NCBI RefSeq assembly: GCF_000423125.1
Contig: NZ_AUHJ01000004.1
Coordinates: 1-64,000, forward strand
DNA length: 64,000 bases
Direction: 5' to 3'
Source: Haliea salexigens DSM 19537
GTDB taxonomy: Bacteria > Pseudomonadota > Gammaproteobacteria > Pseudomonadales > Halieaceae
The notes under the pieces were generated by a model. The model was not told the origin of the DNA, did not search any database, and saw only the letters and a list, made by a program, of their open reading frames with translations. Of the stretch, positions 13,164 through 35,525 are shown piece after piece; within the stretch, counting starts at the first letter, position 1; each line of letters opens with the position of its first letter. Position numbers and translations under genes: made by a program.

Positions 13164-14402
13164 CTAGGCAACAACTGAATCACATCCGAGGAATGCGGCC
13201 CACTCATTCATCATCTCTCGCCGCTGCTCCATAAGGTCGGCGCGAAAATAGGCCGCCTGAACTTTGTCGGTAAGTTGATGCGCTAGCGCCACCTCGGCCA
13301 TGCGTTCGGGGTAGCGTGTCTTCTCACCCACCCAGTCACGAAAGGTGCTTCGAAGGCCGTGGACACTCGTTCGTTCCAGCCAGTCCGTACGCTTCAGCAC
13401 ATTCGTCATGGCCATATTGCTCAGGCATTTACCGCGCTTTTGTCCGGGGAAGACCCAGTCTCCCCTCTCGCCCTGATGAACTGACTGGGTCTTCAGCACG
13501 GCAACGGCTGCATCACAGAGCGGTATGCGGTGCTCCTTGCCCGCTTTCATGCGCACAGCGGGAATACGCCATTCCTTCCGATCAAGGTCGATTTCCGACC
13601 AGGTCGCTTCCAGGGTTTCACTGGTCCGGGTCGCACACAGTAGTGTCAGCAGAAGAGCGCGACCCGCGGCGGTATCGACATCCGTGAGTTTCGCCGCGAG
13701 CTCGGGGGCCTCTAGATATGGCAGCGCCCGCTGGTGCTCCACGCGGTGAACCTTGCCGGGCCTGGGCAGCACGTTGTCGAGGTGCCCCCGCCAGCGAGCA
13801 GGATTATCACCCTCACGATGGCCCTTTGTCGTCGCGTAGTCCAGAACGCGTTCGATGCGGCCCTGCAACCGTTTCGCGGTTTCGGTCTTCTCGGTCCAGA
13901 TGGGGGTGAGCACCTGCAGCACCTGATCCGTGGTGACTTCACCTACGGGCACGACACCCAATATCGGAAAGGCATACGTCTTCAGCGTATTGCGCCACTG
14001 CTGCCCGTGCTTCCGGTTCGTCCAACCCGCCGCGTTGTTGTCGATAAACTCATCGGCGACGCGCAGGAAGGTCATGGCGGCACGCTCTCGCTCTGCCGTT
14101 TCAGCAGCCATCTGCGCGCGTAGCTGGGCCCTCTGACGATCGCGGACCTCAAGCGGGTCGTGGCCTTGCTGGCGCTGATCCCGCGCTGCGTCTCGGCGCA
14201 TCCGCGCCTTGGCCAAACTCACCGCCGGATAGCCGCCTAACCCAAGCTCTCGCCGACGCCCTTCATGTTGGTAGCGATAGATCCAGTTTTTGCTGCCGCC
14301 TCTGGCAACCAGGAGGTACAGTCCTTCAGCATCCAGATGTCGCCCGCGACGGGTGATGCGGTCACAGTCTGCCGGTGTCAGCGCCACGCTCTTACCCCCC
14401 AT
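13164..14402 (-). CDS. P4-type tyrosine recombinase/integrase
   Basis: 412 residues. The N-terminal arm-binding domain (DUF4102-like: LTPADCDRITRRGRHLDAEG, NWIYRYQHEGRRRELGLGGY) is followed by the core-binding and catalytic domains. The catalytic set is complete: Arg259 (LCATRTSETLEATW), Lys near 287, His348-x-x-Arg351 (HGLRSTF), His375 (ALAHQ) and Tyr385 (AAYFRADL). It reads away from tRNA-Asp with its start about 140 bp from the tRNA end. It should catalyse integration and excision at the tRNA 3' end. The gene looks intact. Confidence 0.92.
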   Translation of the reverse strand: MGGKSVALTPADCDRITRRGRHLDAEGLYLLVARGGSKNWIYRYQHEGRRRELGLGGYPAVSLAKARMRRDAARDQRQQGHDPLEVRDRQRAQLRAQMAAETAERERAAMTFLRVADEFIDNNAAGWTNRKHGQQWRNTLKTYAFPILGVVPVGEVTTDQVLQVLTPIWTEKTETAKRLQGRIERVLDYATTKGHREGDNPARWRGHLDNVLPRPGKVHRVEHQRALPYLEAPELAAKLTDVDTAAGRALLLTLLCATRTSETLEATWSEIDLDRKEWRIPAVRMKAGKEHRIPLCDAAVAVLKTQSVHQGERGDWVFPGQKRGKCLSNMAMTNVLKRTDWLERTSVHGLRSTFRDWVGEKTRYPERMAEVALAHQLTDKVQAAYFRADLMEQRREMMNEWAAFLGCDSVVA

Positions 14403-27837: not shown

Positions 27838-28599
27838 TTAGTCGAACCTGGGCGCCCGCTTTTCAAAGAATGCGGTGAGCGCTTCCAGGTTATCGGGCGA
27901 GCCCGCCTGCCGGGCCATTCCCGCCTGCTCCGCCACAAACGCTGCATCGATGGCCGCCGTGTGGTGCATGCGCAGACAGCTCTTGATCTCACGCAGGGCG
28001 CTCACAGGCCATTGCGCTACGGCCGCAGCGCGTTGCAGGGCATGCGCCAGCAGCTGCTCGTCAGGTATAACCTGCGCGACGATTCCCAATTCCAGTGCGC
28101 GTGGCGCGTCAATCCACTCTGCCGTATAGAACAGCTCCGCGGCGCGCTGGGCGCCAATATTTGCCTGCAGCATGTAACTGCTCGCCCACTCCGGAACCAG
28201 GCCCAACGCCGCGAACGGCAAGCGCATGCGAAATGTTTCGCCGGCATACACCATGTCGGCATGAAACAATACGGTAGCGCCACCCCCGATGGCGGCACCC
28301 CTGGCCGCTGCTACCAGCGGTTTGTCGAAATCGGCCACGGCACGGGCGGCACTTTCAAACGGGTGCGGGGCATCAGATTCCGTGCCGGCAAAGCTGGCGA
28401 GATCGACGCCCGCGCTAAAACTGTCACCGGCGCCGGTGAGCACAACGCAGGCGACGCTGTCATCCTGCGCTGCCGCCTGGAACGCCTCACGCAGCGCAAT
28501 CCACAGGGGGTCATTGATAGCGTTTTTCTTAGCGGGGCGATTAAGCGTAAGCAAGCGCACGCGGCCCAGTTGCTCCTGCAGCAATACGTTGTCATTCAT
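27838..28599 (-). CDS. Crotonase-family enoyl-CoA isomerase-like protein
   Basis: 253 residues from the ATG at 28599. Crotonase fold with SFSAGVDLASF (oxyanion) and GAAIGGGATVLFHADMVYAG. The hydratase Glu in the first loop is Ala (GGGATV), while a Glu is present in LGLVPEWASS, the place of the single catalytic Glu of Delta3-Delta2-enoyl-CoA isomerases. So an isomerase is more likely than a hydratase. Last gene of the minus-strand catabolic operon, 102 bp after the hydratase gene. It converges with ribB, 13 bp apart. Confidence 0.78.
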   Translation of the reverse strand: MNDNVLLQEQLGRVRLLTLNRPAKKNAINDPLWIALREAFQAAAQDDSVACVVLTGAGDSFSAGVDLASFAGTESDAPHPFESAARAVADFDKPLVAAARGAAIGGGATVLFHADMVYAGETFRMRLPFAALGLVPEWASSYMLQANIGAQRAAELFYTAEWIDAPRALELGIVAQVIPDEQLLAHALQRAAAVAQWPVSALREIKSCLRMHHTAAIDAAFVAEQAGMARQAGSPDNLEALTAFFEKRAPRFD

Positions 28600-28701
28600 C
28601 GGCTCAGGGCTCCTCGTGGAATACGACAAATTCGTCGAGTGCGGCAAAGCTGGTGGGCACCAGCACCGGCGTGCCAGCGGCAACAGCGACGCACCGACGG
28701 C

Positions 28702-29520
28702 TTACTCACCGCGGAACTGCGCGGGACGTTTTTCCTTGAAAGCACGCATGCCTTCTCTGGCATCAGCCGATGCGAATACCGGCCCTGCCAGCGCATCGGA
28801 GGCGAGCATGGCATCCTCCTCGGCCATACACTCCTGATGCTCGCGCAGCGAGCGCGTGACGGCGGCAACGGCGAGTGGCGCATTGGCGCAGATTCTCGCG
28901 GCGTATTCCCGTGCCGCCTGCAGGGTTGAGCCCGGTGTTACCAGCTTGTTCACCAGCCCCCAGTCAAGCGCCTGCTGCGCACTGATGTGCTCGCCACAGA
29001 GCAGCATTTCGGCGGCCAGGCAATAGGGTATCTGACGTCGCAAGCGCACGGTGGAGCCCGCCATCGGATAGAGCCCGCGGGCCACTTCGGTCACACCAAA
29101 CACGGCATCCTCAGCCGCGACGCGAATATCGGTGCCCTGCAGAATCTCGGTACCACCCGCAAGCGCGTAACCCTCCACCGCGAGGATCAATGGTTTGGCC
29201 GGCCGGTTGTCACGCAGCAGCGCTTGCCAGTGCAGGTTCGGCACCTCTGCCATCAGGGCCATGAACTCGTCGCTGGCACCCTGGTCGCCCTCGGCGCCCG
29301 CTTTCAAATCCATGCCGGCGCAGAAGGTGTTGCCGCGCGCGGTGAGAATGGCGCAACGCAGCGCCGGGTCCTCATCCAGCCGGCGCCATGCGCGATACAT
29401 GCCCAGCAGCATGGCCGGGTTGAAGGCGTTTTTCGCCTCCGGACGATTCAGGGTAACGAAGAGTACGCCCTCCTCCTGCTCGACCAGGCAACTCGGGGTG
29501 CTGATATCCAGTTCTTGCAC
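28702..29520 (-). CDS. Enoyl-CoA hydratase (crotonase family)
   Basis: 272 residues with a GTG start at 29520; AAGGAG lies seven bases upstream. Oxyanion loop FCAGMDLKAG. Both hydratase glutamates are present: Glu125 (AGGTEILQGTD) and Glu145 (FGVTEVARG), spaced 20 residues as in rat mitochondrial hydratase, so water addition to enoyl-CoA is expected. Lies 29 bp after the acyl-CoA synthetase gene in the catabolic operon. Confidence 0.87.
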   Translation of the reverse strand: MQELDISTPSCLVEQEEGVLFVTLNRPEAKNAFNPAMLLGMYRAWRRLDEDPALRCAILTARGNTFCAGMDLKAGAEGDQGASDEFMALMAEVPNLHWQALLRDNRPAKPLILAVEGYALAGGTEILQGTDIRVAAEDAVFGVTEVARGLYPMAGSTVRLRRQIPYCLAAEMLLCGEHISAQQALDWGLVNKLVTPGSTLQAAREYAARICANAPLAVAAVTRSLREHQECMAEEDAMLASDALAGPVFASADAREGMRAFKEKRPAQFRGE

Positions 29521-29549: not shown

Positions 29550-31178
29550 CTACTCTGCGCGGTGTGCACCCGACAACGCGATATCGAGTGCTTTGGGATA
29601 GGCTGGCTTGCCGCTGGGTGCGCGCGGCACCTCCGTCACCAGGTGCAGCTCGCGCGGCACTTTATAGCCGGCAATGTGCTTGCGTGCTTCATCCTGCAAC
29701 GATGCCAGGCACAGGGACTGCCCATCCCGCGCCGCCACCACCGCGGTAACCCGGCTACCCAGCCGCTGATCTGGCGTGCCCACTACCAGGCAGTCAAATA
29801 CCGCCGGGTGATTTTTCAAGGCCTGCTCAACCTCCTCCGGGAACACCTTTTCGCCCCCCGTGTTGATGCAGTTCGACCCGCGGCCGTACACGGTAATCGT
29901 GTCGTCATCCTCCAGTTTGGCCTCATCTCCGGTGAGCAACCAGACCTGGCCTTCAACCGGCACAAAGGTCTTCGCAGTCTTCTCGGGGTCGTTGTAATAG
30001 CCGACCGGAATGTGGCCACAGCGTGCGAAAATGCCTTTTTCTCCGGGGCGGACCTCGCGGTAACTGCCATCAGCATTCTGCGCGAGAACCGACATGAACT
30101 CGCTGCGGGTGACATTGCCAAGCCCCTCGCCTGCCCTGCCGCCGCCATCTGCCCCCATTGCGCCAGACTCAGATGAACCGAAGCTGTTACGCACCATGAT
30201 ATTCGGCAAAAGCTCACGAAACGCGTCCTGCTTGCTGGCAGAAAACACGGCCCCTCCGGAACCCACGGCGAACACCGAGCTCAGGTCCCAGCGCCCGGGA
30301 TGTGCCCGCAGCGCATCCAGCAGTGGCACCGCCATGGCATCGCCCACGATGGTCAAGGAGTTAACGCGCTCACGTTCAACAATGTCCCACACATCCTCGG
30401 CGACCAGATGGTGCGCCGGGTTGAGCACCAGCGCGTTTCCCGACAGCAGCTGTATGCAGGCGTACCACCAACAGGCGCCGTGCATCAGGGGCGCCAGCGC
30501 TATGCCAACTATCGCGAAATCGCCAATGCGCTCGGCAATCTGTTCCGGTTCGGTGATCACGCCGTCAGGGTGAAAATAGCCCCCGCCGCCCATCGCCGCG
30601 TAAAACACGTGTTTGTGCGGCCACATGACCCCCTTGGGCATGCCGGTAGTGCCGCCGGTGTACAGGATGAACAGATCATCATCGGCGCGCTCGGCGAAAT
30701 CCCGCGCTGCGCTCTCGCCCGCAAGCGCCTGTTCATAGGCGATGCTGCCAATGCTCTCGGGGTTCACACCACTGTCGTCCTCGACGTAGACAAATGTGGT
30801 CAGTGCCGGCGCTGTGCTATGGACCGCGGCGATATGGGGCGCAAACTCGCGGTGATGAATACACGCCACCAAATCCGCGTTACTGAGGATATAAGCCAGC
30901 TCCTCCTCCACATAGCGGTAGTTGATGTTGATGGGCACCGCGCGCAACTTGAAGCACGCGAGCATACCTTCCAGGTACTCGTTACAGTTGTAGAGGTACA
31001 AGCCCACGTGCTGGCCCGCTTGCACGCCCCGTGCAGCGAGAAAGTGCGCAAGCCGGTTGGCGCGCTGCTCCAGCTGCTCATAGGTCGAGCGCTGTTGACC
31101 ACACACCAGCGCTGTGCGCTCTGGCACCCGGTCGGCCACCAGTTCGAACAGGTCGGCGATGTTGAAATGTCGCGGCAT
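29550..31178 (-). CDS. Acyl-CoA synthetase (AMP-forming)
   Basis: 542 residues. ANL-superfamily motifs: P-loop ILYTGGTTGMPKGVMWPH (about 175-192), A5 region SFGSSESGAMG, A7 WLLTGDEAKLEDDD, A8 VYGRGSNCINTGGEKVFPEEVE and A10 PSGKPAYPK. It activates a carboxylic acid to its CoA thioester with ATP. Closest in pattern to the FadD3/FadD17-like acyl-CoA synthetases of steroid and branched-acid metabolism; that closeness is judged from memory. ATG at 31178 with GGAG upstream, 24 bp after the aldolase-like gene. Confidence 0.9.
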   Translation of the reverse strand: MPRHFNIADLFELVADRVPERTALVCGQQRSTYEQLEQRANRLAHFLAARGVQAGQHVGLYLYNCNEYLEGMLACFKLRAVPININYRYVEEELAYILSNADLVACIHHREFAPHIAAVHSTAPALTTFVYVEDDSGVNPESIGSIAYEQALAGESAARDFAERADDDLFILYTGGTTGMPKGVMWPHKHVFYAAMGGGGYFHPDGVITEPEQIAERIGDFAIVGIALAPLMHGACWWYACIQLLSGNALVLNPAHHLVAEDVWDIVERERVNSLTIVGDAMAVPLLDALRAHPGRWDLSSVFAVGSGGAVFSASKQDAFRELLPNIMVRNSFGSSESGAMGADGGGRAGEGLGNVTRSEFMSVLAQNADGSYREVRPGEKGIFARCGHIPVGYYNDPEKTAKTFVPVEGQVWLLTGDEAKLEDDDTITVYGRGSNCINTGGEKVFPEEVEQALKNHPAVFDCLVVGTPDQRLGSRVTAVVAARDGQSLCLASLQDEARKHIAGYKVPRELHLVTEVPRAPSGKPAYPKALDIALSGAHRAE

Positions 31179-31202: not shown

Positions 31203-32363
31203 TCAGTTCTTGTGGGCACCGACAACCCACATGGAAAAAAATTGTGCGCCACCGCCATACGCGTGGCCAAGGGCCAGACGGGCATTCTCGACCTGATGCG
31301 CGCCGGCATCACCGCGCACCTGACGGGCGGCTTCCGCGAAACGGATCATGCCGGACGCTCCGATGGGATTGGAACTGAGCACACCGCCGGAGCAGTTCCA
31401 GGGGATATCGCCCCCATCGTCGAGCGACGTGGCACCGTCCAGGGTCAGCTTCCAGCCCTCCCCTGGCGGCGCAAAGCCCAGATTCTCCAGCCACATGGGT
31501 TCGTACCAGCTAAACGGTACGTACACCTCTGCACAATCGAAATCGCGGCGTGGGTCCATGACTCCGGCCTGCGCATAGACGTCGGCCGCGCAGTCGCGAC
31601 CGGCCTGGGGGCTCACTTCATCGCGCCCCGCGTACATGGTGGGCTCGGAGCGCATGGCGACCCCGCGAATCCAGGCGGGCGGCTTGTTGCCGCTAATGCT
31701 GTCAGCGGCGGCGATCACCATCGCGCAGGCGCCATCAGAGGAGGGACAGGCCTCGAGGAAGCGCAGTGGATCCCAGAGCATCATCGAGTCGCGCACCTCC
31801 TGCTCGGTAATGTCGGGTAGCTGCAGGTGTGCCAACGGGTTGCGGGCTCCGTGGCGCCGATCCTTCACCGCAACGCGTATGCCGACACCCTCGGGTGCGT
31901 TGGTACGGCGTATGTATTCGCGAATGATGGGTGCGAAATACCCCCCGGCGCCGGCGTTCAGGTGCACGGAAAAAGGCTGCGGTGTCGACAGCGCCCACAT
32001 GGCGTTGGACTCGGATTGTTTTTCGTAGGTGACGGTGAGCACCCGTTTGAACGTACCGCTCTGGACGTGCGAGGCGGCGACGATGGCGGTGGAACCACCC
32101 ACCGACCCGGCAGTGTGCACCCGCAGCATAGGCTTGCCGCTGGCCCCGAGTGCATCGGCGAGATAGCTCTCGGGCATAACCACGCCCTCAAACATGTCCG
32201 GCGCTTTGCCAATCACCACGGCATCGATGTCGTCAAAGCCCACACCGGCGTCCGCCAGTGCCCTGTCGACCGCTTCCCGCAGCAGGCCGGCTATCGACAC
32301 ATCGGAGCGCCGGGTCTTGTATCGGGTCTGGCCTATGCCAACCACCGCAGCCCATTCAGCCAT
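31203..32363 (-). CDS. Thiolase-fold acyl-CoA aldolase/lipid-transfer-type protein (Ltp-like), Cys replaced
   Basis: 386 residues of SCP-x/Ltp type (VGIGQTRYKTRRSD at the N-terminus, LALGHAYGGGAQFFS near the C-terminus). In the nucleophile loop RVHTAGSVGGSTAI the position of the thiolase Cys aligns to Ser87, so normal thiolysis is unlikely. The related steroid aldolases Ltp2, Ltp3 and Ltp4 of actinobacteria also lack the thiolase Cys, cleave C-C bonds by retro-aldol chemistry, and Ltp2 needs a DUF35 partner. The start shares one base with the preceding stop (TAATG). Aldolase activity is inferred. Confidence 0.75.
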   Translation of the reverse strand: MAEWAAVVGIGQTRYKTRRSDVSIAGLLREAVDRALADAGVGFDDIDAVVIGKAPDMFEGVVMPESYLADALGASGKPMLRVHTAGSVGGSTAIVAASHVQSGTFKRVLTVTYEKQSESNAMWALSTPQPFSVHLNAGAGGYFAPIIREYIRRTNAPEGVGIRVAVKDRRHGARNPLAHLQLPDITEQEVRDSMMLWDPLRFLEACPSSDGACAMVIAAADSISGNKPPAWIRGVAMRSEPTMYAGRDEVSPQAGRDCAADVYAQAGVMDPRRDFDCAEVYVPFSWYEPMWLENLGFAPPGEGWKLTLDGATSLDDGGDIPWNCSGGVLSSNPIGASGMIRFAEAARQVRGDAGAHQVENARLALGHAYGGGAQFFSMWVVGAHKN

Positions 32364-33421
32364 TACGCACCCTCCAGTACCGCCACAAGGTTGTGTTGCA
32401 GACAGGGGCCACTCGTGGCGTGGGCCACCCCGCGGCGCGCGTCTCCGTTGACGATACGCTGGAATACTTCACCCACCCGGGCAAGGCCCGAGGCCATCAT
32501 CAGGTTTCCGGCAAGCACGCCACCGCTGGGGTTGACCACGGTGGCCTCATCCAGCCCGAGTGCGCGGGTCAGGATAATTTCCTGATGGCTGAACGGGGCG
32601 TAGATTTCCGCAACGTCAAGCGCTGCCTCGTGCACCCCGGCCGCCGCCGCAGCCTGGCGTGTCGATACCGAGTCGGTGAGGTCGCGCATACAGGGGTTGT
32701 GGCTCTCGATACGCTGGTCAATGCCGGTGAGCCGAACATAGGGCACACCCCAGCGGCGCGCCTGTTCGACGGTCGCGATAATCATCGCCGCCGCGCCATC
32801 CGATACCGGCGCGCAGTCGCCGCGGCGCAGTGGCGCCAACAGGTAGTCATCCTGCAACAACGCTGCCACGCCGACATCCCCCGCCAGCTGTGCCAGGGGG
32901 TTGGCCTGCGCATTCTGCCGCGAGCGTGACACAACCGCTGCCATATCGCTTTCAGTGATCGACCCACTATCGAGCAGCATCCTCGCCTGCAAGGCCGCGA
33001 GCGATACAGTATCAAGCCAGAGTGGCGCGAGGTAATAAGGATCGAGCCGCTGCGACAGCACCGCAGGTAACTCGCCCGGCGAGGATTTACCGAAACCGTA
33101 GAGCAACGCGGAGTCCGCATGCCCCGTACGAATCTTCAGCACCGCTTCATAGAGCGCCCAGGCAGCGTCCATTTCCACATGCGACTCTTTCAATGGGGGC
33201 ACGGCCCCCAGCGCATCGACCCCCGCGACGAAGGCGAAAGCGGCGCCCTGCAGATAGTCGCAACTGCCCGAACAGACAAAGTCGACATCCTGGGCGCTGT
33301 TCAACCCCACCTGGGCGTACACAGCCTGCAACTGGGGCATGATAAGCTCGACTTCATTGACGGCGCCGATATCGGCGACACAGGCGCTCTGGCTGAAAGC
33401 AACAACCGCGATTTCCCTCAT
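32363..33421 (-). CDS. Second thiolase-fold protein lacking the catalytic Cys (Ltp3/Ltp4-like)
   Basis: 352 residues, shorter than true thiolases. The nucleophile loop reads KESHVEMDAAWALYEAV with no Cys, and the C-terminal half keeps APFSHQEIILTRALGL, NPSGGVLAGNL and GLARVGEVFQRI, the pattern of Ltp-type proteins. It is coupled on both sides (ATGA with the DUF35 gene before, shared base with the aldolase-like gene after). It probably forms a hetero-oligomer with the other thiolase-fold protein and the DUF35 proteins. The exact reaction is unknown. Confidence 0.72.
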   Translation of the reverse strand: MREIAVVAFSQSACVADIGAVNEVELIMPQLQAVYAQVGLNSAQDVDFVCSGSCDYLQGAAFAFVAGVDALGAVPPLKESHVEMDAAWALYEAVLKIRTGHADSALLYGFGKSSPGELPAVLSQRLDPYYLAPLWLDTVSLAALQARMLLDSGSITESDMAAVVSRSRQNAQANPLAQLAGDVGVAALLQDDYLLAPLRRGDCAPVSDGAAAMIIATVEQARRWGVPYVRLTGIDQRIESHNPCMRDLTDSVSTRQAAAAAGVHEAALDVAEIYAPFSHQEIILTRALGLDEATVVNPSGGVLAGNLMMASGLARVGEVFQRIVNGDARRGVAHATSGPCLQHNLVAVLEGA

Positions 33422-33939
33422 CGCGGCACCCCCGGGCCGGACACCGGCAGCGTGCCAATACGCTCCACCGGCACATCGGGCTCATCGAGCGGCCGGAAAT
33501 GACGGATATTATCCATGGCGTAATCCCACTCCTCCGGCGGCCGCCACACCGCCTGTACCCGCTGCCCGATACGCACCGCCTCGTTGACACAGTCACTGAG
33601 CAGGTGAATAAAGGATATATTGGCCCCGTCCAGCACAATGTTCGCCACGACGTACGGGGGTTCAATGGGATTGCCCGGAATGGGGATGTGCACAATGGTG
33701 AACGACTGCACGGTGCCCCGGTCGGGCAGCAATACTTCCTCCGTTGTGGGCACGCCGCAGGCTGGGCAGGAGCCGCGAGCAGGAATATAGACATTGCCAC
33801 AGCGCGGACAGCGCTGGCCACTGAGCAGCCCTTCCCTGAGGCGCGCAAGAAACCGGGCGGGGGCCGTTCCGGCGGTAAAATGGTAGTGCAGGTAAACCGG
33901 AGCTTCGATGCCTGTCACATCCGGGCGTGCTGCGCTCAT
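33418..33939 (-). CDS. DUF35 OB-fold protein with zinc ribbon
   Basis: 173 residues from the ATG at 33939. An N-terminal helix is followed by a rubredoxin-like zinc ribbon (Cys44, Cys47, Cys58, Cys61: QRCPRCGN and SCPACG) and an OB fold (GTVQSFTIVHIPIPGNPIEP, YVVANIVLDG). DUF35 proteins bind and stabilise thiolase-fold aldolases or act as acyl-CoA chaperones, as ChsH2 does for Ltp2. It overlaps both neighbouring genes by four bases, pointing to stoichiometric production. Confidence 0.85.
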   Translation of the reverse strand: MSAARPDVTGIEAPVYLHYHFTAGTAPARFLARLREGLLSGQRCPRCGNVYIPARGSCPACGVPTTEEVLLPDRGTVQSFTIVHIPIPGNPIEPPYVVANIVLDGANISFIHLLSDCVNEAVRIGQRVQAVWRPPEEWDYAMDNIRHFRPLDEPDVPVERIGTLPVSGPGVPR

Positions 33940-34391
33940 GATGCACCTCCCGGCACGGGTACGAAGCAGCGAATATCCGTGATATGCCCGCGCGGCTCTG
34001 CCACCCAGGCCACGCGCACGCGCCCCCCGGTGCTTACCGCCTCGGCCGAGGACGCTTGCAAGCAATGAATCATCGGTACGTCGGCACCGTCGAGGCGCAC
34101 CATCACCCAGGCGAAGGGCTGCTGCAGCGGATGCGAGGCTCGCGGCTCTGACACCCAGCACCAGCTGACCACGGTGCCCTCCTGGCCCACTTCCACCCAG
34201 TCCGACAGGGCGGCTGCCGTGGCAGGGTCATACTCCGGTGGCGGCACCAGCACGCGGCCGTCGCTGCCGCGGATGCCGAGCACCCGACTGTCGCGCAAGC
34301 CGGTGAGGAATCTGCCTACCACCGGCCCCGTAGAGCGTGTATAGGTGAATCCGAGCTCAAATTCCTGGCTTAATTTTTCTGTTATGGCCAT
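33936..34391 (-). CDS. DUF35-like OB-fold protein without zinc ribbon
   Basis: 151 residues. It has the OB-fold part of DUF35 (GTVVSWCWVSEPRASHPLQQ, PFAWVMVRLDGADVPMIHCL, GGRVRVAWVAEPRG) and an N-terminal helix region with RFLTGLRDSRVLGIRGSDG, but no CxxC pairs, so it should not bind zinc. First gene of the catabolic operon. It is likely a paired subunit to the zinc-bearing DUF35 protein, one per thiolase-fold partner (inference). Confidence 0.75.
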   Translation of the reverse strand: MAITEKLSQEFELGFTYTRSTGPVVGRFLTGLRDSRVLGIRGSDGRVLVPPPEYDPATAAALSDWVEVGQEGTVVSWCWVSEPRASHPLQQPFAWVMVRLDGADVPMIHCLQASSAEAVSTGGRVRVAWVAEPRGHITDIRCFVPVPGGAS

Positions 34392-34619: not shown

Positions 34620-35525
34620 ATGAGTATCGCCGCCATTGGCTACCTGAGAATCGCCGCGACCGATACGGACGCGTGGATGACGTTCGGCACCAGCACACTG
34701 GGCCTGATGGACGCGGCACGCGAGGACTCTGCCGGCGCACGCTTTCTGCGCATGGACAATCACCCGTTCCGCTTTATGCTGGAGCCGGCCGACCACGACG
34801 GGCTGATTGCGGCGGGCCTCGAATGCCGCGGCCGCAGCGAGTGGGAAGAGCTCTGCAACCGCCTGGACAGCAACGGCCACACACTGCAGCAGGGTACGCC
34901 AGCCGAAGCCGCGCGTCGCTGCGTCACGGCGTTTGTCAGTGTTGATGACCCCTGCGGCAACACGCTGGAGATCTACTACGGCCGGCGTCTGGACTACGCG
35001 CCGCTGATTTCACCGACCGGGGTCAAGGAGTTCATCACGGGGGATGAGTACACCGGCGACATGGGCTTCGGCCACGCGGTACTGCCAACGCCCGACCTCG
35101 ACACAGCCGCCAGCTTTTACACCGACCTGCTGGGCCTCGGCGTGAGTGACACGCTGCATCCGCCGCTGCCCGAAGGCGCACCGGAAACCACCATCCTGTT
35201 CCTGCATGCCGACAATCCGCGCCAGCACTCGCTGGCACTGTACAACCACCCCTACACTGGCGACGTTGTGCATATCATGGTGGAAGTGAGCTCCCTGGAC
35301 GAGGTTGGCCGCGCCATGGATCGCGCCAAGGCCGGCGGTTACCCCATACTCGCCAGCCTGGGCAGGCACGTGAACGACAACATGTGCTCATTCTACGTGG
35401 TGGCGCCGGGCGGTATCGCCGTAGAGTACGGCTACGATGGCCTGCTGGTGGACTGGGATACCTACACACCCACGGTCAGCACCGAGGGTGACCACTGGGG
35501 CCACGAGTACAACTTCCCCGGCTAG
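34620..35525 (+). CDS. Type I extradiol dioxygenase (BphC/HsaC-like)
   Basis: 301 residues, the usual two-domain vicinal-oxygen-chelate length. All active-site positions of BphC are present with matching spacing: iron ligands His152 (FGHAVL), His218 (VVHIMVEV) and Glu269 (IAVEYG), acid-base His203 (RQHSLALYN) and Tyr259 (MCSFYV). It should cleave a catechol ring next to the hydroxyls with O2 and Fe(II). HsaC and TesB do this on catecholic steroids, BphC on dihydroxybiphenyl; the neighbouring Ltp/DUF35 genes favour a steroid-like substrate, but this is inference. Confidence 0.88.
   Translation: MSIAAIGYLRIAATDTDAWMTFGTSTLGLMDAAREDSAGARFLRMDNHPFRFMLEPADHDGLIAAGLECRGRSEWEELCNRLDSNGHTLQQGTPAEAARRCVTAFVSVDDPCGNTLEIYYGRRLDYAPLISPTGVKEFITGDEYTGDMGFGHAVLPTPDLDTAASFYTDLLGLGVSDTLHPPLPEGAPETTILFLHADNPRQHSLALYNHPYTGDVVHIMVEVSSLDEVGRAMDRAKAGGYPILASLGRHVNDNMCSFYVVAPGGIAVEYGYDGLLVDWDTYTPTVSTEGDHWGHEYNFPG

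Follow-up and report, generated by a model that had tools for sequence, protein, structure and literature searches.

Four tightly overlapping genes of Haliea salexigens DSM 19537 encode two DUF35 proteins (DUF35a and DUF35b) followed by two thiolase-fold proteins (TlpA and TlpB). They lie on the minus strand, from 31203 to 34391, of the window analyzed here, a stretch of 64,000 nucleotides (nt) of contig NZ_AUHJ01000004.1 (assembly GCF_000423125.1). Our analysis indicates that the four genes are probably a proteobacterial Ltp3/Ltp4 set, whose products would cleave C24-branched sterol side chains as a heteromeric retro-aldol lyase. The set is orthologous to actinobacterial sets and conserved in gene order, both of its thiolase-fold proteins have lost the thiolase nucleophile, and its occurrence is linked to that of steroid-ring genes.

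Relationship to actinobacterial Ltp3 and Ltp4

A first-pass annotation, made from the sequence alone, had described a zinc-free DUF35 protein, a zinc-bearing DUF35 protein, and two thiolase-fold proteins encoded in this order by tightly overlapping genes, and both the coordinates and Pfam agree with that description. DUF35a and DUF35b overlap by 4 nt, DUF35b and TlpA by 4 nt, and TlpA and TlpB by 1 nt. DUF35b matched OB_ChsH2_C (56.8 bits) as well as the zinc ribbon zf-ChsH2 (33.9 bits; cut-off 23.2). Its start was taken at 33939; a longer listed open reading frame (ORF) from 34161 begins within the neighboring gene. Pfam gave no zinc-ribbon match in DUF35a, which also contains no CxxC motif. 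The thiolase fold of TlpA and TlpB was supported both by sequence and by structure model and fold match.

The link to Ltp3/Ltp4 proposed in the same annotation is upheld by synteny, family cut-offs, and phylogeny. For comparison, the best 80 loci of at least 583 confirmed relatives (592 candidates) in the genome collection were combined with four plasmid loci, giving 84 loci. All of the best 80 were actinobacterial by record title, probably because a Tsukamurella sequence stands first in the query alignment and lower-ranking loci were not kept. The closest plasmid sets, from Nonomuraea, Streptomyces clavuligerus, Tsukamurella, and Nocardia farcinica, were 67-70% identical to the window set in TlpB and 48-55% in TlpA. 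Median identities of the window proteins to actinobacteria were 67% (TlpB), 52% (TlpA), 54% (DUF35a), and 49% (DUF35b), calculated from 28 of the 84 sets (every third row) with the TlpB rows including L098, which is really the neighboring TlpA.

Both DUF35 matches fell within one ORF in 84/84 actinobacterial loci (83/83 informative loci, the contig of L139 starting inside the gene). DUF35a is the counterpart of the N-terminal half of this fused DUF35-DUF35 protein, to which it is 49-55% identical in the four actinobacterial plasmid loci, and DUF35b is the counterpart of the C-terminal half. Pfam identified two OB domains in the fused protein of Tsukamurella and Rhodococcus jostii and a zinc ribbon in that of Tsukamurella only.

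The R. jostii pair passes the same NCBIfam families as TlpB and TlpA (PRK08313 with 751.9 bits and PRK07937 with 633.2 bits; Table 1); PRK07798, the family of the FadD19-type protein in the window, is likewise passed by the product of the gene adjacent to echA19 in R. jostii. The accessible part of PMC6429209 lists Rv3515c (fadD19), Rv3516 (echA19), Rv3521 (encoding a conserved hypothetical protein), Rv3522 (ltp4), and Rv3523 (ltp3). Because the gene order matches this list, TlpA corresponds to Ltp4 and TlpB to Ltp3, and the equation of PRK08313 with Ltp3 and of PRK07937 with Ltp4 rests on synteny with Rv3523 and Rv3522. The named actinobacteria have genes for the fused DUF35 protein, TlpA, and TlpB with FadD19- and EchA19-type genes near; across all actinobacterial stretches, some of which are short, such acyl-CoA synthetase and hydratase genes were not found in every case. 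The window thus comprises an Ltp3-family protein, an Ltp4-family protein encoded just upstream, a tandem DUF35 in the form of two overlapping genes, and fadD19- and echA19-type genes nearby. It shares with the actinobacterial loci the four domains in order, the thiolase-fold families, and the active-site substitutions, but differs in its split DUF35, its additional hydratase-family gene, its HsaC-like gene, and its host, which belongs to another phylum.

Phylogenetic reconstruction placed the proteobacterial and actinobacterial groups on two sides of one branch with an approximate likelihood-ratio support (SH-aLRT) of 99. The tree was calculated by a quick method from 51 joined TlpA and TlpB alignments (19 proteobacterial and 32 of the 84 actinobacterial sets) and midpoint-rooted for drawing only; L040 (contig end) and L042 (broken frame) were left out, and four rows (L045, L049, L063, and L065) are long. 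Recent gene transfer from actinobacteria is not supported by this division into two groups. The fused or split state of DUF35 requires at least three changes on the tree.

Active-site residues and DUF35 zinc sites

As the first-pass annotation had claimed, both thiolase-fold proteins lack the nucleophilic Cys. HMMER alignments to solved thiolases place Gly86 of TlpB and Glu83 of TlpA at this position, and a MAFFT alignment places TlpB Asn332 at the His of the GHP motif and Ala368 at the second Cys; TlpB therefore lacks all three of these thiolase residues, and TlpA has Glu83 in place of the nucleophile. Columns were counted over 103 rows for TlpB (21 proteobacterial and 82 actinobacterial, with L098 dropped as its contig ends before TlpB) and 105 rows for TlpA (21 and 84). 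In TlpB, Gly86 was present in 103/103 rows and, among ungapped rows, Tyr281 and Pro283 in 102/102 and Asn332 and Ala368 in 99/99.

Tyr281 of TlpB, in the motif YVPF, aligned with Tyr294 of Ltp2 (YDHF) and Tyr302 of Sal (YDCY), both of which are catalytic according to the accessible part of PMC12329534. TlpB accordingly resembles aldolases of the Ltp2 and Sal type in the loss of Cys and in the catalytic Tyr, but not in the known proton donor: the second catalytic residues, Tyr344 of Ltp2 and Cys304 of Sal, are replaced by Asn332 and Pro283, and the His of YDHF corresponds to the Pro of YVPF. The same Tyr position in TlpA is occupied by Tyr (14) or His (7) in the 21 proteobacterial sequences and by His (54), Tyr (19), or Cys (11) in the 84 actinobacterial sequences.

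The Ltp2-ChsH2 complex (6ok1) shares with the window set the combination of thiolase fold and DUF35, the loss of the nucleophilic Cys, and the place of the catalytic Tyr, and a structural alignment of TlpB with 6ok1 showed 28% identity across 360 residues. The Sal-Shy bile acid aldolase (9myr), in which Shy is the DUF35 protein, has Gly at the nucleophile position as in TlpB, uses Cys304 as its acid, and has a Cys3His1 zinc site. Each of these aldolases comprises one thiolase-fold protein and one DUF35 protein, whereas two of each are encoded here. This rule of one of each, stated in the first-pass annotation, is in line with the H. salexigens genome, where four further DUF35 genes each adjoin one thiolase-fold gene (neighbors were found with TlpB as query, which would overlook a second, more divergent neighbor); sets of one plus one thus coexist with the set of two plus two. 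They include a close homolog of Sal, the bile acid aldolase of Comamonas (591.6 bits to 9myr; L052 8634-9839, contig C8) and an Ltp2-type protein with the motif YDHF (242.3 bits to 6ok1; 361.9 bits to the lipid-transfer family PRK07855, cut-off 469).

Thiolase-fold proteins are also complexed with DUF35 proteins, in the service of other chemistry, in the BbsAB benzoylsuccinyl-CoA thiolase (7pxp), the archaeal thiolase/HMG-CoA synthase (6esq), and the PhlABC acyltransferase (5m3k). Each of these complexes contains one DUF35 species, and both HMG-CoA synthase and PhlA have the thiolase fold. The accessible part of PMC12329534 describes HMG-CoA synthase and PhlA as second proteins of the archaeal complex and of PhlABC, respectively.

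Distant paired thiolase-fold sets near DUF35, with 26-36% identity, were observed on a Simplicispira suum plasmid (L067 6072-8663) and on Cupriavidus necator pBB1 (L066 6787-10209). These sets were compared by annotation, alignment, and Pfam. In the Simplicispira pair, Asn replaces the His of the GHP motif in both proteins, and the larger protein contains the motif YDPY. The paired Cys-less design may therefore extend more widely than sterols.

The first-pass annotation had set a two-plus-two set with one zinc-free DUF35 apart from the known aldolases. That such a set is peculiar to this genome is not supported, given the two fused domains of the actinobacterial sets and the frequent loss of the zinc site from the second. 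No CxxC motif was present in 104/105 DUF35a sequences, and the sole exception, L139, is explained by a contig that starts within the gene, which led to selection of the second domain instead. The absence of zinc was accordingly rejected as a distinguishing feature of this genome. All four zinc Cys of DUF35b were found in 12/21 proteobacterial sequences, the window included; by aligned columns, the 84 actinobacterial loci comprised 2 with CCCC, 33 with CCCD, and 49 in which no more than one Cys of the four is left. At most one Cys is likewise left in L039, L040, L042-L044, and L046-L049. The set has thus persisted where the metal site of DUF35b has disappeared, and zinc in DUF35b was rejected as a defining trait.

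Occurrence, neighboring genes, and the steroid link

TlpA was identified in 35/194 genomes of the order Pseudomonadales (E ≤ 1e-15), one of which (G088) holds half of the gene. Twenty stretches were fetched from 19 of the 35 carriers, yielding 21 proteobacterial sets once the window is counted. DUF35a, DUF35b, TlpA, and TlpB occurred in the same order in 20/20 stretches, although TlpB is cut by the contig end in L040 and lies in two pieces in L042. Because 35/194 genomes carry TlpA and the order is kept in 20/20 stretches, the four-gene set is not a chance arrangement. The DUF35 domains were split in 15/21 proteobacterial sets and fused in one ORF in the remaining six (L035, L036, L037, L038, L039, and L040). 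In even draws of the phylum, 2/398 genomes matched (E ≤ 1e-30), namely this genome and one weak partial match, and in even draws of the class 2/369 matched at 1e-60, namely this genome and one match covering positions 54-350; these draws include genomes of the same order without a match and show only rarity in even draws, compared with 35/194 in the order.

Occurrence of the set was linked to that of steroid-ring genes in the same 194 genomes. HsaA-like proteins (E ≤ 1e-90) were encoded by 30/35 carriers versus 15/159 other genomes, KshA_C proteins by 32/35 versus 31/159, and a cytochrome P450 related to a Tsukamurella P450 whose gene adjoins that of a steroid thiolase by 31/35 versus 8/159. 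This P450 had no NCBIfam name at 1e-60 and is not called CYP125. In one genome of the window's own family (G040), the TlpA set, KshA_C, HsaA, and the P450 are all missing, and in one genome (G023) of a genus with five carriers the set, KshA_C, and HsaA are missing together. The HsaA-like gene of H. salexigens (409.8 bits; cut-off 450) adjoins the best KshA_C match of the genome on contig C8. Steroid breakdown has been described in gammaproteobacterial Spongiibacteraceae and Halieaceae (PMC5790920, accessible part). Sal-type proteins (E ≤ 1e-100) were detected in 10/194 genomes and 4/35 carriers (p = 0.08), and Sal is not supported as a marker that travels with the set.

Downstream of TlpB and in the same direction, the window encodes a FadD19-type acyl-CoA synthetase after a gap of 24 nt and an EchA19-type hydratase after a further gap of 29 nt (Table 1). 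This succession directly after TlpB was found in 11/20 fetched stretches. The second hydratase-family protein had no NCBIfam family above cut-off among the 25 of 72 matches listed. The divergent dioxygenase gene adjoins the set in 3/20 fetched stretches; its best solved sequence was 2zi8 (222.2 bits; runner-up 173.3), which we take to be HsaC.

Table 1. The four-gene set and its neighbors in the window, with scores in bits and, where given, the family cut-off exceeded.
Feature	Coordinates	Strand	Product	Family match
Second enoyl-CoA hydratase/isomerase-family protein	27838-28683	−		ECH_1 157.2 (Pfam)
EchA19-type	28702-29520	−	enoyl-CoA hydratase	PRK07799 326.8 over 316 (NCBIfam)
FadD19-type	29550-31178	−	acyl-CoA synthetase	PRK07798 657.8 over 543 (NCBIfam)
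TlpB	31203-32363	−	386 aa, long thiolase-fold protein, Ltp3-type	PRK08313 658.5 over 514 (NCBIfam)
TlpA	32363-33421	−	352 aa, short thiolase-fold protein, Ltp4-type	PRK07937 470.7 over 419 (NCBIfam)
DUF35b	33418-33939	−	173 aa, ATG at 33939, zinc ribbon and OB-fold	
DUF35a	33936-34391	−	151 aa, zinc-free OB-fold protein	OB_ChsH2_C 48.6 over 27.1 (Pfam)
HsaC-like	34620-35525	+	extradiol ring-cleavage dioxygenase, divergent from the set	

Other genes recur around the set in related genomes. A gene of the family III CoA-transferase type was common to 8/21 loci compared (L034 14927-16063, L041 14974-16131, and six more), and in L034 and L041 it sits between two hydratase genes. Alpha-methylacyl-CoA racemases belong to the same family, and racemization at the C25 methyl group would be in keeping with the pathway. 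A nitroreductase-family gene formed a cluster of 11 loci, without a member in the window; in L031 (4612-5331) it lies between two hydratase genes. Elsewhere in the window, an integrase-like protein is encoded at 13164-14402 (PRK09692, 166.7 bits, below the cut-off of 434), and the first 8 kilobases have a G+C content of 0.56-0.57 compared with 0.60-0.66 in the rest.

Proposed reaction and alternative readings

By analogy with the Sal-Shy and Ltp2-ChsH2 aldolases, we infer that TlpA and TlpB form a thiolase-fold core flanked by two DUF35 domains, which would be a two-fold version of those enzymes. FadD19 would convert a C24-branched sterol acid into its C26-CoA thioester, from which a dehydrogenase and the EchA19-type hydratase would yield a tertiary beta-hydroxyacyl-CoA. 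Such a compound cannot be oxidized to a ketone, and the complex would cleave the C-C bond by a retro-aldol reaction. TlpB is the likelier catalytic subunit, in which Tyr281 would take the hydroxyl proton, a role also proposed for its Ltp2 and Sal equivalents. The proton donor of TlpB would differ from the known ones, since both of these are replaced. TlpA and the zinc-free DUF35a would probably constitute a specialized, perhaps non-catalytic half responsible for the shape of the pocket. The heteromeric hydratase ChsH1-ChsH2 offers a precedent, with one active site per heterodimer according to the accessible part of PMC11321319. In actinobacteria, ltp3, ltp4, and fadD19 are reported, second hand in the accessible part of PMC6273163, to be needed for C24-branched but not straight side chains, and the accessible part of PMC6678751 uses the name ‘heteromeric aldol-lyase (Ltp3-Ltp4)’.

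Several observations weigh against this reading. The substrate and the bond are carried over, second hand, from partial accounts of actinobacterial work. The EchA19-type protein scores 323.0 against the EchA19 equivalog, below its cut-off of 400 (NCBIfam), and the dioxygenase is below the cut-offs both for biphenyl-2,3-diol dioxygenase (262.9; 366.45) and for HsaC (257.1; 450). No FadD19-type gene lies directly downstream in 9/20 stretches, one of which (L040) is cut by the contig end. Concerning the steroid link, the Fisher tests treat related genomes as independent, and all HsaA matches in these 194 genomes fall below the cut-off of the HsaA model. The best KshA_C match of H. salexigens itself had no NCBIfam family above cut-off. 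HsaA at 1e-90 is missing from five of the 35 carriers, KshA_C from three, and the P450 from four, and in G023 the P450 is present although the set is not. Finally, several residues specific to TlpA are strictly conserved (Cys50, His81, Glu83, and Asp85 in 105/105 and His334 in 104/104), for which a partner with a purely structural role would have no obvious use. Because of this conservation, TlpA may hold a second active site.

It is unlikely that the genes encode two coupled lyases, which the first-pass annotation had suggested alongside a four-component C-C lyase and in which TlpA and TlpB would both be catalytic, each with its own DUF35, and would make two successive cuts, e.g., at C24-C28 and then at C24-C25. 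The invariant His81, Glu83, and Asp85 of TlpA do lie on the loop of the thiolase nucleophile, with the other invariant residues elsewhere, but the catalytic Tyr position of TlpA varies (His 61, Tyr 33, and Cys 11 of 105) and TlpA evolves faster than TlpB, as the median identities of 52% versus 67% indicate. One review, in its accessible part, names the C24-C25 bond and gives acetyl-CoA from campesterol and, after C28 carboxylation, propionyl-CoA from sitosterol, a stoichiometry that would be more consistent with cleavage at C24-C28 than at the bond named. The reported need for both ltp3 and ltp4, which two lyases would explain, fits a heteromer equally well. We consider it quite unlikely that the set is a single two-site machine performing successive retro-aldol cuts, one per thiolase-fold subunit (the C24 branch, then the chain end), with a new His81-Glu83-Asp85 site in TlpA and the same design in a wider subgroup with YxP(F/Y) and Asn-Pro on proteobacterial plasmids.

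A set of aldolases for other 2-methyl-branched or terpenoid acyl-CoA substrates, rather than sterols, is improbable. Consistent with it, the weakly related pair on the Simplicispira plasmid occurs with a zinc-ribbon DUF35 in a 15-kilobase stretch that contains no steroid-annotated gene, and KshA_C, with seven matches in the H. salexigens genome, may include other Rieske oxygenases. However, the Ltp2 motif YDHF is present in another thiolase-fold protein of the Simplicispira stretch (the related Cupriavidus record is unannotated), the plasmid sets are only distantly similar when compared with the 67-70% identity of TlpB to actinobacterial Ltp3-type proteins, and both the co-occurrence with HsaA and the FadD19- and EchA19-type neighbors argue for sterols. 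A true thiolase or acyltransferase with a Cys elsewhere is highly improbable, as the invariant Cys50 of TlpA (105/105) sits in an early strand-loop away from both thiolase Cys positions and TlpB has Gly86, Asn332, and Ala368.

The first-pass annotation had expected a proteobacterial version to be little described, and no account of a proteobacterial Ltp3/Ltp4 was found in the literature searched, which did not include most subscription journals. The main text of PMC5790920, as far as accessible, does not mention ltp or FadD19, nor does the accessible part of PMC4810484 mention ltp3 or ltp4. The same literature contained neither a tandem DUF35 with a first domain free of the zinc ribbon as a constant part of the set nor its split or fused form in another phylum.

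Collectively, the set identified here does not represent a new type of system; it is a proteobacterial member of the Ltp3/Ltp4 kind. The comparison yields a concrete four-part composition, small split proteobacterial versions of the set, and a list of invariant residues. C24-branched sterols are common in plants and algae, and our findings suggest that some proteobacteria are able to use them.

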